Assembly: GCA_017962375.1 (NCBI GenBank)
Contig: JAGCVJ010000002.1
Location: forward strand, 1 to 64,000
Origin: Bacteroidales bacterium
GTDB taxonomy: Bacteria > Bacteroidota > Bacteroidia > Bacteroidales > UBA932
DNA length: 64,000 nt
Direction: 5' to 3'
Positions 1,478 through 64,000 of the stretch are shown piece by piece. A model generated the notes under the pieces. The model was given only the letters and a program-made list of their open reading frames with translations. It had not been told where the DNA came from and did no database searches. The translations under genes were made by a program, and so were the position numbers. Positions within the stretch are counted from its first letter, which is position 1. Every line of letters begins with the position of its first letter.

Positions 1478-3358
1478 ATGGAAGAAAACACCACCGCTTT
1501 GAATGCGCAGCAGGAAGCTGAAGCAAAGCAGGAATCGATTAAAAATGAGGTTCAGCCAGAGTCTGAGATTGTAGCCCCGGTTGCCGAAGAGTCTGTTGAG
1601 CCTATTGTTGAAGTACCTGAAAACCAGGAGAATGTAATAGCAGAGGAGAATGTGGACTATTCTGAAAAGTCTCTGAATGAATTGCTGTCTGTCTTCGAGC
1701 AGATGATTCAGAAAGGAGACCAGCAGATGCTCTACAAGAATGCCGAGTCTATCAAGGCAGGTTTTTACAAGGTATTGAGAAAGGAGAAGATTGCTTCTGG
1801 ACTGTTTGTTGAACCAGGTATGGGCCAGCAGCAGAGCAACCCTTTCGAGGAGGTGGAGAAAGCTTTCAAAGACTTGTATGCCAAATATAAATCTTCCAGG
1901 GCCAATTTCAACCAGGAAATGCAGGCCAAGAAAGAGGAGAACCTCGCTGAGAAGACTAAGATAATTGAATCTATAAACGCCCTTCTTGAAAAGGCAGAGG
2001 ACGTGAATCATACTCTCCCGGCTTTCAGGGAGTTGCAGGCTAAATGGAAAGCAACCGGCAATGTTCCTCAGGAGAATGCCCGCGAGATTTGGGACCAGTA
2101 TAACCATGCCGTTGAGAAGTTCTACGATTATCTGAAGATTAACAAGGAATTCCGCGATCTGGACTTCAAGAAGAACTATGAACTGAAGACAGAACTCTGC
2201 CAGAAGGCTGAGCTTCTTGTAGAAGACAAGGATCCTGTAAAGGCTTTCAACGAGCTTCAGAAGCTTCACGAAGAGTGGAAGGAGCTGGGCCCTGTTTCCA
2301 AAGAGCAGAGAGAGGAAATCTGGGAGAGATTCAAGGCGGCAACTTCCAAGATCAACAAGAGGCATCAGGACTTCTTCTCCAACCTCAAGGAAGAGCAGAA
2401 GGCAAACCTGAAGGCCAAGACCGAGATTTGCGAGCAGGCTGAAGAGATTGCAGCCACTGAGGCCACCGATTCTAACAAGTGGAACTCCCTGTCCAAGAAG
2501 ATGGACGAGCTTCATGCCAAGTGGAGAAGCATCGGCTTTGCTTCCAAGAAAGACAACCAGAAGATTTACGACCGCTTCCGTGCCGCGTGCGACAAGTTCT
2601 ACAGCGCAAAGCGTGAGTTCTATACAAAGTTCAAGGATGTGATGCAGGAGAATTTGAGGAAGAAGGAGGAACTTTGCGAGCAGGCGGAGAAAATCAAGGA
2701 TACAGACGACTGGAAGAAAGGAACAGACCAGCTGATAAATCTGCAGAACGTATGGAAGACCATTGGTCCTGTAGCCAGGAAGCAGTCTGATGCAGTTTGG
2801 AAAAGGTTCCGCGCTGCCTGTGACGAATTCTTTGACAGGAAGGCCAAGCATTTTGGTGCTGAAGGCGAGAAATTTGAGGAGAACCTTGCCGCCAAGAAGG
2901 CTGTCATCCAGGAGATTAAAGACTATGTAAGTACTGGGGCAGACTCTGACAAGGAGGCTCTGGAGTCATTCCTGACCAAGTGGAATTCAATAGGATTTGT
3001 TCCGTTCAAGGAGAAGGATTCTCTTCAGAAAGAATTTGACGCTGCTCTGAATCTGCATTTTTCAGCCATCAGGAATCCTGAGGCAGAAAAGAAGATGGGC
3101 CGCATCCGCAGGCTTATAACAGAGGCAAAGACAAGCGGAAAGAGCGACCGCGGCATCCGCACTGAAAGGGAGAAGCTCCTCAACAAGTTCCGCAAGCTGG
3201 AGACTGACATAGCCACGCTGGAGAACAATATGGGATTCTTTGCAAAGAGCAAGAATGCGGACAAGCTCATAGAGGAGATAAAGGGCAAGATCGCTGCCGG
3301 AAAAGAGGAACTCAAGTCTCTTGAGCAGAAGATCAAAATGATAGATAAGGAATTTTAG
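1478..3358 (+). CDS. DUF349 repeat protein
   Basis: A 626-residue acidic, mostly helical cytoplasmic protein with about five DUF349 repeats. Each contains a W-x-x-I/L/T-G motif followed by a W/Y-x-R-F-type helix, for example at KWKATGNVP, EWKELGPVS, KWRSIGFAS, VWKTIGPVA and KWNSIGFVP. The family's molecular role is not established. The first ~75 residues are low-complexity and Glu-rich, and the C-terminus is a probable coiled coil. Start at ATG 1478 (MEENTTALNAQ); an upstream in-frame start at 1436 overlaps the -7 box. yidC follows after 2 bp, so the two are very likely co-transcribed. Confidence 0.85.
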   Translation: MEENTTALNAQQEAEAKQESIKNEVQPESEIVAPVAEESVEPIVEVPENQENVIAEENVDYSEKSLNELLSVFEQMIQKGDQQMLYKNAESIKAGFYKVLRKEKIASGLFVEPGMGQQQSNPFEEVEKAFKDLYAKYKSSRANFNQEMQAKKEENLAEKTKIIESINALLEKAEDVNHTLPAFRELQAKWKATGNVPQENAREIWDQYNHAVEKFYDYLKINKEFRDLDFKKNYELKTELCQKAELLVEDKDPVKAFNELQKLHEEWKELGPVSKEQREEIWERFKAATSKINKRHQDFFSNLKEEQKANLKAKTEICEQAEEIAATEATDSNKWNSLSKKMDELHAKWRSIGFASKKDNQKIYDRFRAACDKFYSAKREFYTKFKDVMQENLRKKEELCEQAEKIKDTDDWKKGTDQLINLQNVWKTIGPVARKQSDAVWKRFRAACDEFFDRKAKHFGAEGEKFEENLAAKKAVIQEIKDYVSTGADSDKEALESFLTKWNSIGFVPFKEKDSLQKEFDAALNLHFSAIRNPEAEKKMGRIRRLITEAKTSGKSDRGIRTEREKLLNKFRKLETDIATLENNMGFFAKSKNADKLIEEIKGKIAAGKEELKSLEQKIKMIDKEF

Positions 3359-3360
3359 AA

Positions 3361-5283
3361 ATGCAGAAGAATACTATTTTGGGATTTGTCCTGATAGGGC
3401 TTATCCTCATTGGTTTCAGCTGGTATAATTCACATAACTACAAGAAACAGGCCCGCGAGGCTTTCGTAAAAGATTCTCTGGCAAGGATAGAGGCTCTCAC
3501 AAACCCGAGAGTTGCCGATTCTCTCAGAGTGGCTGATTCAATTCGGAATGCCGCTTTGGGAATCAAGCCGTCTGAAGAAGTTCAGACAACGGCCAACCCT
3601 GATTCTCTGGCAGTTGCAGACACTACTCAGGTTGTTGCATTGGCAGATTCTACTCTTTCTGCAGCCCAGGGAGGGGAAGAAGAGCTGATCACTCTGGAGA
3701 ACGAAAAGCTCAAGATCATATTCACTACAAAGGGCGGCCAGATCAAGCAGTGCCAGGTTAAAGGCTACAAGACATACGGGAATGATTCTCTCTATATCGT
3801 GAAGGAGAATTACTCTGACATGTCTTTGGTGTTCAACACTATGCAGGAAGTGAGAACTTCCTCATTCAACTTCAGCGTGGCTGAGCAGACAGATTCTTCC
3901 GTTGTTTTCCGCCTTCCGTTTTCCGGCGGAGCCTATATGGATTTTGCCTACCGCCTTCCTAAGGACAGCTATCAGCTGGACTTCAACATTATAACCAATG
4001 GGCTGGGTAGCCAGATGTCCAACAATGCCAGCGACTTTGACCTCGACTGGTCTTTGAGGATATCCAGATTTGAGAAAGGCTATGACAACGAGAAGAATTA
4101 TTCTACCGTAAACTTCAAGTATCCAGGAGAAAAGACGGTGGAGGACCTCGGAATGAGGAAGGCTGAGAGCCAGAAGGAAATACCTACCAAAGTGAACTGG
4201 TTCGCTTTCCGCCAGCAGTTCTTCTCGGCGATTCTGATGTGCGACGACAATTTCTCCAACGGAAAACTTTCTTACAAGTTCCTGCCTGAGACCGATCCTG
4301 ATTCTGCCTTGTTCGACTGCAAGGCCTATATGCAGATGAGCTACGGCAGGGGAGAAGATGTGAACATTCCTCTGCACTTCTATTTCGGCCCGAATCTCTA
4401 CAAGACGCTCAAGAGCTACGGCAACTATTTCGAGAAGATAATCCCGATGGGCGGAAGCATCATCGGCTGGATAAACAGAGTGGTGATAGTCAACACTTTC
4501 GACTTCTTGAGGAAATACATTTCCAATTACGGAATCATAATCCTGATTATGACCATCCTCATCAAACTGGTGCTTTCTCCTCTGACATACAAGTCTTATC
4601 TGTCATCGGCGAAGATGAGGGTTCTCAAGCCTGAGATAGACAAGATCAACAAGAAATATCCTAAGCGGGAAGACGCTTTGAAAAAGCAGCAGGAAACGAT
4701 GGCCCTATACCGCAAGACCGGGGTGAACATGATGGGAGGCTGCCTTCCTATGCTGCTGCAGATTCCTATCCTGTTTGCAATGTTCCGCTTCTTCCCTGTT
4801 TCGTTTGAGCTTAGGCAGCATCCGTTCCTCTGGGCTTCAGACCTCAGCGGATATGACTCCATACTGGATCTGGGATTCAACATTCCGATGTACGGCAACC
4901 ACGTCAGCCTGTTCGCCATACTGATGGCCATCTCTATGTACCTGTTCTCCAAGATGAACATGCAGCAGATGCCGGACAACGGCAGCATGCCGGGAATGAA
5001 GGGAATGCAGCTGTATTTCATGCCTATTTTCATGCTGGTTCTGTGTAATAATTTCTCCGCCGGACTGAGCTACTATTATATGCTGTCCAACTTTATCGCG
5101 ATAGGGCAGAACTGGCTTATCCGCAAATATGCTGTAGACGAGGAGAAACTCTACGCCCAGCTCAAGAGCAAGGCTGAATCAAACGCAGGCAAACCTGCAA
5201 AGAAATCAAAATGGCGCGAAAGAATGGAGCAGATGATGAAGGAGCAGGAGAGGCTTCAGCGCGAAAGACAGAAGAAAAGATAA
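3361..5283 (+). CDS. yidC: Membrane protein insertase YidC
   Basis: Inserts and folds inner-membrane proteins, alone or with SecYEG. The 640-residue protein has an N-terminal anchor (~5-22), a large periplasmic beta-sandwich domain (to about residue 360) and a C-terminal insertase core with membrane segments at ILIMTILIKLVLSPLTYKSY, GGCLPMLLQIPILFAMFRFF, VSLFAILMAISMYLFS and the final pair MPIFMLVLCNNFSAGLSYYY / SNFIAIGQNWLI. The basic tail (KKSKWRERMEQMMKEQERLQ and beyond) is typical of ribosome-contacting ends. Lies between the DUF349 gene and yggS; its stop overlaps the yggS start by one base. Confidence 0.96.
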   Translation: MQKNTILGFVLIGLILIGFSWYNSHNYKKQAREAFVKDSLARIEALTNPRVADSLRVADSIRNAALGIKPSEEVQTTANPDSLAVADTTQVVALADSTLSAAQGGEEELITLENEKLKIIFTTKGGQIKQCQVKGYKTYGNDSLYIVKENYSDMSLVFNTMQEVRTSSFNFSVAEQTDSSVVFRLPFSGGAYMDFAYRLPKDSYQLDFNIITNGLGSQMSNNASDFDLDWSLRISRFEKGYDNEKNYSTVNFKYPGEKTVEDLGMRKAESQKEIPTKVNWFAFRQQFFSAILMCDDNFSNGKLSYKFLPETDPDSALFDCKAYMQMSYGRGEDVNIPLHFYFGPNLYKTLKSYGNYFEKIIPMGGSIIGWINRVVIVNTFDFLRKYISNYGIIILIMTILIKLVLSPLTYKSYLSSAKMRVLKPEIDKINKKYPKREDALKKQQETMALYRKTGVNMMGGCLPMLLQIPILFAMFRFFPVSFELRQHPFLWASDLSGYDSILDLGFNIPMYGNHVSLFAILMAISMYLFSKMNMQQMPDNGSMPGMKGMQLYFMPIFMLVLCNNFSAGLSYYYMLSNFIAIGQNWLIRKYAVDEEKLYAQLKSKAESNAGKPAKKSKWRERMEQMMKEQERLQRERQKKR

Positions 5284-61863: not shown

Positions 61864-62619
61864 TCAAATGTCTATGTCCAGTTCAACGGGGCAGTGGTCG
61901 CTCCCGAAGATTTCTGTATGTATCTTGGCGTCAGATAGTTTGCTGTCAAGCCTTTTGGATGACAGGAAATAGTCTATTCTCCATCCGGTGTTCCTCTTCC
62001 TGGCCTGGAAGCGGTAGCTCCACCATGAATAAACGCCTTCCAGATCGGGATAGAAGTGCCTCCATGTATCGGTGAAGCCCGATTCCAGAAGGAGGGTGAA
62101 TTTCTCCCTTTCCTCGTCTGTGAAGCCTGCGTTGCGGCGGTTGGTCTTGGGGTTCTTCAGGTCTATCTCCTTGTGGGCCACGTTCATGTCTCCGCAAACT
62201 ATGACAGGTTTCTTCTTGTCCAGACCGGTCAGGAAGGCTCTGAAATCGTCTTCCCACCTCATCCTGTAATCCAGCCTCTTGAGTTCCTCCTGGGAGTTGG
62301 GCGTATATACGCAGACCAAGTAAAAGCCGTTGAATTCCAGGGTAATGACTCTTCCTTCATGGTCGTGCTCGTCTATCCCCATCCCGTAGGTTACATTCAA
62401 AGGTTCAACCTTGGTGAACACGGCGGTTCCGCTGTAGCCTTTTTTCTCTGCAAAGTTCCAGTAAGACTTGTAGGCTGGGAAATCCAGATCCAGCTGGCCG
62501 CTCTGCATCTTGGTTTCCTGAAGGCAGAAAATGTCTGCGTCCAGGCTTTTGAATGATTCGGAAAAACCTTTGCCTTCGCAGGCGCGGAGGCCGTTTACGT
62601 TCCAGGAGACGAGTTTCAT
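61864..62619 (-). CDS. xth: Exodeoxyribonuclease III
   Basis: Base-excision-repair AP endonuclease/3' exonuclease of the EEP fold, 251 aa. MKLVSWNVNGLRAC opens it; metal/catalytic blocks are FCLQETKMQ, YSGTAVFTK, VCVYTPNSQ, PVIVCGDMNVAHKEIDL, AGFTDEEREKF, YSWWSYRFQARKRNTGWRIDYFL and GSDHCPVELDI. ATG 62619 matches the family start; upstream in-frame sequence crosses the promoter. Divergent from the trp leader. Confidence 0.95.
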   Translation of the reverse strand: MKLVSWNVNGLRACEGKGFSESFKSLDADIFCLQETKMQSGQLDLDFPAYKSYWNFAEKKGYSGTAVFTKVEPLNVTYGMGIDEHDHEGRVITLEFNGFYLVCVYTPNSQEELKRLDYRMRWEDDFRAFLTGLDKKKPVIVCGDMNVAHKEIDLKNPKTNRRNAGFTDEEREKFTLLLESGFTDTWRHFYPDLEGVYSWWSYRFQARKRNTGWRIDYFLSSKRLDSKLSDAKIHTEIFGSDHCPVELDIDI

Positions 62620-62641
62620 CGCGATTAATATTTTGCAATAA

Positions 62642-62649
62642 CAAAAATA
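62642..62649 (-). promoter_or_regulatory. -7 box for xth
   Basis: Minus strand TATTTTTG, full TAnnTTTG match, 22 bp before the xth ATG. It is 7 bp from the -33 element of the divergent trp promoter. Confidence 0.55.
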
Positions 62650-62656
62650 CGAAATA

Positions 62657-62687
62657 TTGTGTATGATAGAGAAAATGTTTAAATTTG
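62657..62687 (+). promoter_or_regulatory. Promoter of the trp leader and trpB
   Basis: TTG (62657-62659), exactly 20 bp, TAAATTTG (62680-62687). Transcription should begin around 62691-62694, only two to five bases before the leader-peptide ATG. Confidence 0.7.
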
Positions 62688-62695
62688 CCTTTGAA

Positions 62696-62752
62696 ATGAT
62701 ACGACTTGCATCTATAAACTTCTGGTGGCGCACTTGCAGTATTCCTCTGTAA
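62696..62752 (+). CDS. Tryptophan leader peptide (TrpL-like)
   Basis: Eighteen codons, peptide MIRLASINFWWRTCSIPL, with tandem Trp codons TGG TGG at 62723-62728. It lies between a strong promoter and the terminator in front of trpB2, so its role is to sense charged tRNA-Trp: a ribosome stalled at the Trp codons would cover segment 1 (62732-62739). The stop TAA (62750-62752) sits inside segment 2. The name trpL is used by analogy only; the sequence is not related to the E. coli peptide. Confidence 0.75.
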   Translation: MIRLASINFWWRTCSIPL

Positions 62753-62799
62753 GTCGGTAACCTGTAGTTTTTTATGATATATGGCACGCTGGCTTACAG
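62732..62799 (+). promoter_or_regulatory. Alternative pause and antiterminator pairings of the trp leader
   Basis: Segment 1, ACTTGCAG (62732-62739), pairs with segment 2, CTGTAAGT (62747-62754), over 8 bp with one G-U pair and a 7-nt loop. Segment 2 extended (62747-62758) instead pairs with segment 3 (62788-62799): CTGTAAG with CTTACAG is perfect, extended by TCGGT with GCTGG using three G-U pairs, 12 bp in all. Segment 3 includes the loop and part of both arms of the terminator, so 2:3 pairing excludes termination. Confidence 0.75.
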
Positions 62800-62816
62800 C
62801 GTGCCATAGTTTTTTT
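62780..62816 (+). terminator. Attenuator terminator of trpB
   Basis: TATGGCACGCTG (62780-62791) pairs perfectly with CAGCGTGCCATA (62797-62808) around the 5-nt loop GCTTA and is followed by G and seven T. It lies 25 bp before the trpB ATG on the same strand, so it must be read through for trpB expression. Confidence 0.93.
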
Positions 62817-62841
62817 ATTAACTCTCAAAACCCATATCACC

Positions 62842-64000
62842 ATGAGACAAAAAAAGTATCTGTTAGGCGAATCTGAGATTCCGACCCATTTTTTCAACAT
62901 GCAGGCTGTAATGCCTAACAAGCCTCTCCCGATTCTGAATCCGGCAACAAGGGAACCATTGAAGGCGGAGGATCTTTATCCGATTTTCTGCCAGGAATGC
63001 GCTAACCAGGAGTTCAATGCAAAAGATGTATGGATTCCCATTCCGGAAGAGTTGAGGCAGATGTACGCTTCTTACAGATGCACGCCTCTTGTCAGGGCAT
63101 ACGACCTGGAGGAGGCTCTGGGTACTCCGGCTCACATTTATTTCAAGAACGAGAGCGTTAGCCCTGCCGGTTCTCACAAGCTCAATTCCGCTCTGGCACA
63201 GGCGTATTACGCCAAGAAACAGGGAATTACCAACATCACTACAGAAACCGGAGCCGGGCAGTGGGGAGGGGCGCTTTCATACGCTGCCAGCAAATTCGGC
63301 CTGGAATGCGCAGTCTATATGGTGAAGGTCAGCTATGAGCAGAAGCCGTACCGCAAAAGCATAATGCAGACTTTCGGGGCGGCAATCACTCCTTCTCCGT
63401 CTATGAGCACAAGGGCCGGTAAAGATATAATCACGGCAAATCCGGCCGACAACGGTTCGCTTGGATGCGCCATCTCGGAAGCCATTGAGCTGGCCGTGAC
63501 AACTCCGGGCTGCCGCTATACTTTGGGCTCCGTGCTCAACCACGTGTGCCTGCACCAGACGGTAATCGGCCTGGAGGCTGAAAAGCAGATGGAGCTTGCA
63601 GGGGAGTATCCCGATATAGTAATAGCTTGTTTTGGAGGCGGTTCCAACTTCTCTGGCATTGCCTATCCGTTTATGAGGCACAATATCCTTGAAGGAAGGA
63701 AAACCAGATTCATTGCCGCGGAGCCTGCATCCTGCCCTAAGCTTACCAGAGGCCGGTTCGAATATGATTTCGCTGATGAAGCGGGGCTTACCCCTCTGCT
63801 TCCTATGTACACTCTGGGCCACACTTTCAAGCCTTCCAGCATCCACGCAGGCGGACTTCGTTATCACGGAGCAGGAGTGATACTGTCTCAGCTGATGAAA
63901 GACGGGTATATGGAAGCCGTGGACATTGAGCAGAAAGAGTCTTTCAGGGCGGGGATCCTCTTTGCCCGCACAGAAGGAATTATACCGGCTCCAGAGTCTT
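62842..64000 (+). CDS. trpB: Tryptophan synthase beta chain, TrpB2 type (partial)
   Basis: At least 386 aa, running past the window end. PLP-dependent enzyme joining indole and serine to tryptophan. The sequence is the TrpB2 type: long N-terminus with IPTHFFNMQAVMPNKPLPILNP, the PLP lysine in ESVSPAGSHKLNSALAQAYYA, TTETGAGQWGGALSYAA, SPSMSTRAGKDII, phosphate-binding IACFGGGSNFSGIAYP, and LGHTFKPSSIHAGGLRYHGAGV. The start ATG 62842 follows the attenuator. No other trp gene is visible in the window, so whether this is the first gene of a trp operon cannot be seen. Confidence 0.93.
   Translation, partial: MRQKKYLLGESEIPTHFFNMQAVMPNKPLPILNPATREPLKAEDLYPIFCQECANQEFNAKDVWIPIPEELRQMYASYRCTPLVRAYDLEEALGTPAHIYFKNESVSPAGSHKLNSALAQAYYAKKQGITNITTETGAGQWGGALSYAASKFGLECAVYMVKVSYEQKPYRKSIMQTFGAAITPSPSMSTRAGKDIITANPADNGSLGCAISEAIELAVTTPGCRYTLGSVLNHVCLHQTVIGLEAEKQMELAGEYPDIVIACFGGGSNFSGIAYPFMRHNILEGRKTRFIAAEPASCPKLTRGRFEYDFADEAGLTPLLPMYTLGHTFKPSSIHAGGLRYHGAGVILSQLMKDGYMEAVDIEQKESFRAGILFARTEGIIPAPES

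Follow-up and report, generated by a model that had tools for sequence, protein, structure and literature searches.

A ribosome-mediated tryptophan attenuator very probably controls trpB2, the gene for a stand-alone tryptophan synthase beta, in a 64,000-nucleotide stretch of Bacteroidales DNA (hereafter, the window) that was analysed from sequence. The sequence hallmarks of an amino-acid attenuator are found there, namely a leader ORF, mutually exclusive pairings, a terminator, and a target gene of the tryptophan pathway. This kind of attenuator is known, and already within the phylum; what this case adds is the recurrence of trpB2 as its target and the placement of the leader’s start codon near the predicted 5′ end of the transcript.

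The source genome is a 2.17 Mb, 87%-complete member of the Bacteroidales. Its trpB2 scores above the cut-offs of the NF009057 and TIGR01415 profiles and below that of TIGR00263 (trpB1). Between trpB2 and its divergent neighbor, xth, lies a gap of 222 bases, and this gap contains the promoter, the leader ORF, the 1:2 and 2:3 pairings, and the terminator, with features as follows.

61864–62619, − strand: xth (exodeoxyribonuclease III), the divergent neighbor, by profile match
62657–62659, + strand: −33-like TTG of a predicted Bacteroides-type promoter, by sequence (consensus from PMC7366714, in excerpt)
62680–62687, + strand: predicted −7 box, TAAATTTG, matching TAnnTTTG at 6/6 positions
62696–62752, + strand: leader peptide ORF, MIRLASINFWWRTCSIPL, 18 codons plus TAA (62750–62752), with counterparts before the trpB2 genes of relatives
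62723–62728, + strand: putatively regulatory tandem Trp codons, TGG TGG, by sequence and by frequency against controls
62732–62739, + strand: segment 1, ACTTGCAG, whose partner is 62747–62754, by pairing and fold
62747–62758, + strand: segment 2, CTGTAAGTCGGT, which holds the stop codon and can pair with segment 1 or segment 3
62788–62799, + strand: segment 3, GCTGGCTTACAG, which pairs with segment 2 to form the antiterminator and overlaps the terminator’s loop and its two arms, by pairing and fold
62780–62808, + strand: intrinsic terminator hairpin 3:4, 12 bp with a 5-base loop, GCTTA, by fold, covariation, and shuffles
62810–62816, + strand: T7 tract of the terminator, by sequence
62842–64000, + strand: trpB2, 454 aa, continuing to 64206 beyond the window, by profile matches and ORF end

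Since xth is divergent and lies on the − strand, the + strand terminator is not its own, and the idea that the hairpin serves as another gene’s terminator was ruled out. On the downstream side, a gene for phospholipase A1 (PF02253) begins on the same strand approximately 24 bases after trpB2 (2731–3573 in locus L094, equivalent to 64230–65075 in the numbering of the window and hence beyond its end), and readthrough might therefore reach it as well. At the opposite end, the window opens within the 3′ portion of a 23S rRNA gene, after which comes a 5S rRNA gene (positions 1–451).

An earlier first-pass annotation of this DNA had described an 18-codon leader with tandem TGG codons, mutually exclusive 1:2 (8 bp) and 2:3 (12 bp) pairings, and a 12-bp terminator with a tract of seven T, and its coordinates and counts proved to be correct to the base, with the computed folds in agreement. 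The 1:2 pairing contributes −8.0 kcal/mol, and a fold of 62720–62779 extends its helix to −15.3 kcal/mol. The 2:3 pairing comprises 12 contiguous pairs, G-U counted (62747–62758 with 62788–62799), and is included in the fold of 62741–62799 at −18.7 kcal/mol. The 3:4 hairpin itself reaches −21.8 kcal/mol and is separated from the T7 tract by a single G, while a fold of 62765–62816 returns the terminator at −23.2 kcal/mol. Taken as a whole, the RNA from 62694 to 62816 folds at −42.3 kcal/mol (z −4.75), and none of 200 shuffles was equally stable. The terminator fold of 62741–62816, at −23.3 kcal/mol, exceeds the antiterminator fold in stability (−18.7 kcal/mol), and the choice between them would therefore be kinetic, made while the RNA is being transcribed, as it is in E. 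coli.

With a TGG codon in its A site, a stalled ribosome would shield about ten bases downstream, and the spacing of the pairings was judged against this geometry. From the anatomy of the leader, stalling, termination, and a response to tryptophan may be predicted as follows. Transcription would begin slightly upstream of the leader AUG, by a few bases, a ribosome would load at once, and RNA polymerase would proceed. When charged tRNA-Trp is scarce, the ribosome would stall at 62723–62728 and cover segment 1 (62732–62739), whereupon segment 2 would be free to capture segment 3 as soon as base 62799 has emerged, blocking the terminator and allowing trpB2 to be transcribed. When charged tRNA-Trp is plentiful, the ribosome would instead reach the stop codon at 62750 and cover segment 2, the 3:4 hairpin would form, and transcription would end near 62810–62816. 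If the leader were not translated at all, 1:2 and 3:4 would form together, and transcription would also end.

Support for this reading comes from the relatives of trpB2. The sample comprised 80 trpB2 genes with upstream sequence, i.e., those of 79 relatives together with the window’s (locus L055 came without upstream sequence); many of the relatives’ records are named for ruminant gut samples, and the nearest TrpB2 among the 80 loci fetched is 96% identical to that of the window. Under a strict rule (an ATG start, two adjacent in-frame TGG codons, at most 30 codons, and a location within 300 bases upstream), a leader was found in 54/80 genes on the sense strand, in 0/80 on the antisense strand, and in a mean of 0.3/80 over 20 rounds of dinucleotide shuffles. 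The Trp-Trp leader before trpB2 is thus not a product of chance. In the window’s own 300-base upstream region, just 0.3% of 2000 dinucleotide shuffles held an ATG-initiated ORF of at most 30 codons with adjacent Trp codons. A looser reading, which admits GTG starts, for example, places a short Trp-Trp leader before 56 of the 80 genes, the count having been lowered from 57 when L009, with a GTG frame inside a coding sequence, was dropped. For 54 of the 56, a terminator hairpin as defined by a scripted rule follows the leader (shuffles give 5.1 of 56), and high-scoring hairpins follow 51 of them (0.0 in shuffles).

The search of orthologues for tandem Trp codons in a short upstream frame, as proposed by the first-pass annotation, was therefore largely borne out by the 56 genes, with the qualification that the leader is missing from the other 24. 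Nineteen of these share 75–79% identity, and five are close relatives (L009, L013, L014, L033, and L037). Eleven further trpB2 upstream regions yielded six with a Trp-Trp leader (G201, G203, G206, G208, G006, and G007) and four without one (G198, G202, G204, and G205). In two of the loci without a Trp-Trp leader (L161 and L162, from G205 and G202, respectively), trpB2 lies close behind the apparent end of another ORF, and its control may therefore come from an upstream promoter. A different arrangement was seen at L166, from a genome that possesses trpA (G002), where a short ORF ending in YWRWRTK precedes trpB2; its Trp codons are split by Arg, and none are adjacent.

A promoter had also been claimed in the first-pass annotation, and here the outcome depends on the promoter type considered. 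The box TAAATTTG agrees with the Bacteroides consensus at all six defined positions, and a TTG (62657–62659) sits 20 bases before it. A sigma-70 signal did not rise above chance (two sites, with 2.2 expected), and that candidate was rejected in favor of the Bacteroides box. In the excerpted text of PMC7366714, the Bacteroides box is centered at −7, and the transcription start is accordingly predicted near 62690–62691, with a 5′ UTR of about 5–6 bases (or 4–6 by another estimate). With 8 bases separating the box from the leader ATG, an almost leaderless mRNA is predicted. In B. thetaiotaomicron, about 3.7% of 5′ UTRs are below 10 bases, and Bacteroidota mRNAs are described as being without classical Shine-Dalgarno sequences (both from excerpts of PMC7366714). 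No Shine-Dalgarno sequence is evident in the window’s leader sequence.

The same spacing recurs among the relatives. A box matching at least five of the six positions and ending 5–9 bases before an in-frame start codon was found in 41/56 trpB2 leaders versus 13/56 and 9/56 in two control intervals of equal width further upstream. The five-of-six rule is lax, being satisfied somewhere in 59% of shuffled regions. The box occurs at this spacing in 6 of 47 other leaders, mostly those of trpB1 and trpE. This comparison set of 47 was taken from 56 loci, with contig-edge cases, the window, and two repeats omitted, and it includes eight trpB2 leaders. When a 16-base interval lying 15–30 bases before the start codon was considered, such boxes were also found in 38/56 trpB2 leaders and in 40/47 of the others.

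An mRNA of this form raises the question of action in trans. In Sinorhizobium meliloti, the trpL transcript rnTrpL begins at the leader AUG (PMC7298713, in excerpt), much as the window’s transcript is predicted to begin within a few bases of it, and the released leader RNA or peptide of the window, like rnTrpL/peTrpL, might also act in trans. The predicted RNA of approximately 120 bases, with its almost leaderless ORF, would suit such a role. The two systems differ in that the S. meliloti target is trpE(G) and that trans roles have been reported there. The leader peptide of the trpB2 relatives is variable outside the Trp run and the Arg that follows it, which counts against action in trans. 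This Arg, mostly encoded by CGC, directly follows the Trp run in 45/56 trpB2 leaders and in 18/47 of the others. Trans action seems unlikely, and it would add to attenuation in cis rather than replace it.

Attenuation in cis depends on the pairings, which were examined in an alignment (A1) of 30 of the 56 trpB2 leaders, representing the window’s subgroup. L053, which is near-identical to L041, was omitted, as were subgroups with other pairings. The invariance of the TGG codons in A1 is no evidence in itself, since the leaders were located by the string TGGTGG. The terminator stem covaries. For 3:4, 89.8% of cells are paired, compared with 77.7% after column shuffles and 25–52% when the strands are slid against each other. 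Two-sided changes occur in 7 of its 12 pairs (shuffles average 4.5, and 11 of 500 reach seven), and they occupy 46 cells versus 17.2 in shuffles, a value that none of the 500 shuffles attained. The terminator pair 120/137 is broken in 9 of the 30 leaders.

The upstream pairings tell a different story within the subgroup. For 2:3, 90.8% of cells are paired, falling to 23–39% when the strands are offset by one to three columns, and column shuffles remain nearly as paired (89.7%) because 2:3 hardly varies. Its outermost counted pair is unpaired in 26/30 leaders and holds in 3/30. Two-sided change is seen in 3 of 11 pairs, with a mean of 0.4 in shuffles and 0/500 reaching three. For 1:2, 97.1% of cells are paired (again 23–39% under the same offsets), and two-sided change is confined to 2 of 8 pairs, a level that 31/500 shuffles reach. 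As both pairings barely vary within the window’s subgroup, the evidence there is one of conservation more than covariation. Segment 2 (CTGTAAG) scarcely changes across the subgroup, which is to be expected where one strand has to serve two partners.

Between subgroups, segments 2 and 3 have been rewritten jointly, with pairs such as GATCGG/CCGATC, TTTCGG/CCGAAA, TTCCGG/CCGGAA, TCTCCGG/CCGGAGA, and GTCGCAA/TTGCGAC. The best 2:3 helices among 54 leaders form 24 different strings, many of which are length variants of CTGTAAG/CTTACAG. When the 2:3 duplex was compared with shuffles, 40/54 trpB2 leaders reached p ≤ 0.05 (2.7 expected; the window’s z is −3.3), as did 22/47 of the other leaders. In a further comparison, segment 3 was swapped between unlike loci, and the native pair ranked in the best 5% for 28/54 trpB2 leaders and for 10/47 of the others. 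The compensatory changes anticipated by the first-pass annotation are thus found in the terminator and, between subgroups, in segments 2 and 3, but they are weak within the subgroup for 1:2 and 2:3.

An additional outer helix, in which bases immediately 5′ to the Trp codons pair with bases beyond segment 2, was noticed by eye around the Trp codons of five loci (L005, L015, L020, L038, and L040), being striking in the last three. It beats shuffles at p ≤ 0.05 in 12/54 trpB2 leaders and in 10/47 of the others. In the window, it was rejected (z +0.8 and a rank of 0.97 against other loci); as it is not better than shuffles there, nothing is claimed for it beyond the pairs present in the window’s fold.

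The genes that carry this class of leader were explored with a covariance model (R1) trained solely on the 30 aligned trpB2 leaders. R1 matches 59/393 genomes of the order (61 places) and 15/119 of the family (15 places, one shared), or 75 places in total, and some of these genomes may be of the same species as the training loci. Target genes were read at 44 of the 75 places, comprising the order’s best 30 and all those of the family, the remaining 31 being the weakest. Every one of the 44 precedes a trp gene: trpB1 in 19 cases, trpE in 14, trpB2 in 10 (window included), and trpD in one. These identities were checked by tblastn, with that of L140 as TrpD assigned by TIGR01245; L135 was counted as trpE because the reference labelled trpB1 (L097) is actually the neighboring TrpE. 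Adjacent Trp codons occur at all 44 places, as befits a model trained on such leaders, and they lie 107–242 bases from the gene start in 40 of them and 338–495 bases in the other four (L117, L118, L123, and L128). At L127 (G006:C131:3149–3436), two R1 matches stand head to tail before a single trpE, which is suggestive of possible tandem Trp attenuators. In genus-mates with a trp operon (G198, G199, and G206), trpB1 has its own upstream frame with adjacent Trp codons.

These findings bear on an alternative, i.e., that the hairpin is a fixed, partial terminator blind to tryptophan, the leader ORF serving only to keep ribosomes near the polymerase and the Trp codons being incidental. The terminator fold is indeed the thermodynamically preferred one. 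Nevertheless, incidental codons would not be expected to stand adjacent before 54 of 80 trpB2 genes against 0.3 expected while the remainder of the peptide varies, nor would the complementarity between segments 2 and 3 be expected to persist, and all 44 of the R1 places examined lie before trp genes and have adjacent Trp codons (albeit as R1 was trained to find). This alternative is accordingly regarded as very improbable, and attenuation of the E. coli trp type, as originally proposed for this DNA, is supported by the anatomy of the leader, its conservation, its covariation, and the genes that it precedes.

Among known systems, the closest is Bacteroid-trp (RF01692), a cis-regulatory RNA of Bacteroidetes (Weinberg et al. 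2010, PMC2864571). It is described as resembling the E. coli leader in structure and as being conserved upstream of the trp operon of F. psychrophilum (PMC6414381), an organism in which “strong clues” are reported to point to attenuation by leader peptides ahead of amino-acid operons (PMC9723704). Leader-like sORFs are also reported for B. thetaiotaomicron, though the word tryptophan is absent from the excerpts of PMC7366714, and the excerpts of PMC4833913 and PMC3766115 contain nothing on Bacteroidetes trp leaders. Among the full-text literature matches listed, no title or abstract mentions a trpB2 attenuator in Bacteroidetes, which lends weak support to its absence from print. Work by Vitreschak in 2004 reportedly covers some attenuators beyond proteobacteria.

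RF01692 matches 16/198 genomes of the order, 10 of them above its cut-off of 49 bits. All 12 of the RF01692 loci examined carry a leader with 2–3 Trp codons, a likeness to the window’s element in addition to their shared phylum; 10 precede trpB1, one precedes trpE, and one runs off its contig. R1 also found 9 of the 16 RF01692 places (G030, G118, G173, G166, G144, G002, G165, G060, and G105). Conversely, RF01692 matches the trpB2 leaders of G449, G464, G510, G433, and G277 at R1 places with 31–42 bits, below cut-off, and gave no match at E ≤ 1 to those of G493, G504, and G480. At gathering, it matched none of the 18 trpB2 loci scanned, 15 of which have the leader. It found nothing in the window at E ≤ 10 or in the source genome (G000) at E ≤ 1. 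The window’s sequence subgroup, then, escapes the Rfam model. The window’s element differs further in targeting trpB2 and in having a start codon near its predicted 5′ end, and it falls outside RF01692 as defined, although it would work in the same way and is probably related to it.

The E. coli trp leader (RF00513, Trp_leader) shares the 1:2 / 2:3 / 3:4 logic, just as the first-pass annotation had asserted. Its companion assertion that the sequences are unrelated is not entirely accurate, in that 13 bases, TGGTGGCGCACTT, at 62723–62735 are identical to those of trpL in E. coli K-12, along with the peptide WWRT. The same 13 bases are present in 19/56 trpB2 leaders. In the window, RF00513 scores 22.9 bits (E 0.018), below its gathering threshold of 41 bits. 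The window’s leader differs from that of E. coli in targeting trpB2 rather than trpE, in having a Bacteroides promoter, and in the distance from the last Trp codon to the stop, which is seven codons versus three; as a result, the window’s stop lies inside segment 2. Matches to STnc180 (E 0.0059), VrrA, mir-62, and SNORA41 were all far below gathering and were taken as chance. Another Trp attenuator before a gene called trpB2 has been predicted for trpB2A of Corynebacterium diphtheriae (PMC1262725, in excerpt), although that bacterium belongs to another phylum and its gene to an operon with trpA.

Control by a T-box, a TRAP-like protein, or a riboswitch in place of the ribosome might be considered for any structured 5′ region before a tryptophan gene, but it is exceedingly improbable here, where no Rfam family of these kinds reached gathering across the window or appeared even at E ≤ 10 in 62560–62900, and where the ORF’s tandem Trp codons stand in register with the pairings, a feature that T-box, TRAP, and riboswitch systems are not known to have.

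The TrpB2 family condenses indole with serine, and the ribosome-mediated attenuator can be considered in that light. An archaeal TrpB2 has been implicated in indole salvage (Hiyama et al. 2014, as cited in the excerpted text of PMC11085991). Searches of the source genome returned no trpB1 above the TIGR00263 cut-off (its sole hits, trpB2 itself and a weak match, fall short of it), no trpA above cut-off (one 19-bit match), and no match to Chorismate_bind (trpE), in an assembly that is 87% complete. Within the genus, 3 of 13 genomes, with the source genome counted among the 13, possess trpB1, trpA, and Chorismate_bind all above cut-off. Similarly, none of the nine genomes with an R1-detected trpB2 leader has trpA above cut-off, three of them giving matches of 18–20 bits, while the trpA search was positive in 14/14 control genomes. 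With trpA, trpB1, and Chorismate_bind all below cut-off in the source genome, the switch most likely controls the salvage of outside indole under the direction of charged tRNA-Trp, a reading that rests on genes undetected in an incomplete assembly. A strict link between the trpB2 leader and the loss of trpA was rejected, as some genomes have both the leader and trpA (G206 and G007) and others have neither (G202, G204, and G205). G198 possesses trpA and a trpB2 without the Trp-Trp leader.

There is perhaps an even chance that, in Bacteroidales whose tryptophan pathway has been lost, an almost leaderless attenuator switches an indole-salvage trpB2, the one tryptophan-forming gene left, and so tunes the capture of neighbors’ indole to the charging of tRNA-Trp. 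If this is true, a ribosome must engage the RNA at its very first bases and remain near the polymerase in Bacteroidota, and the leader would offer a 120-base test object for ribosome-polymerase coupling in the phylum. The proposal also carries a prediction for indole cross-feeding, whereby uncharged tRNA-Trp would switch on the capture of indole in bacteria that lack a tryptophan pathway. More broadly, the trpB1, trpE, and trpB2 leaders of Bacteroidales can be joined into what is apparently one class, partly missed by the existing Rfam model.
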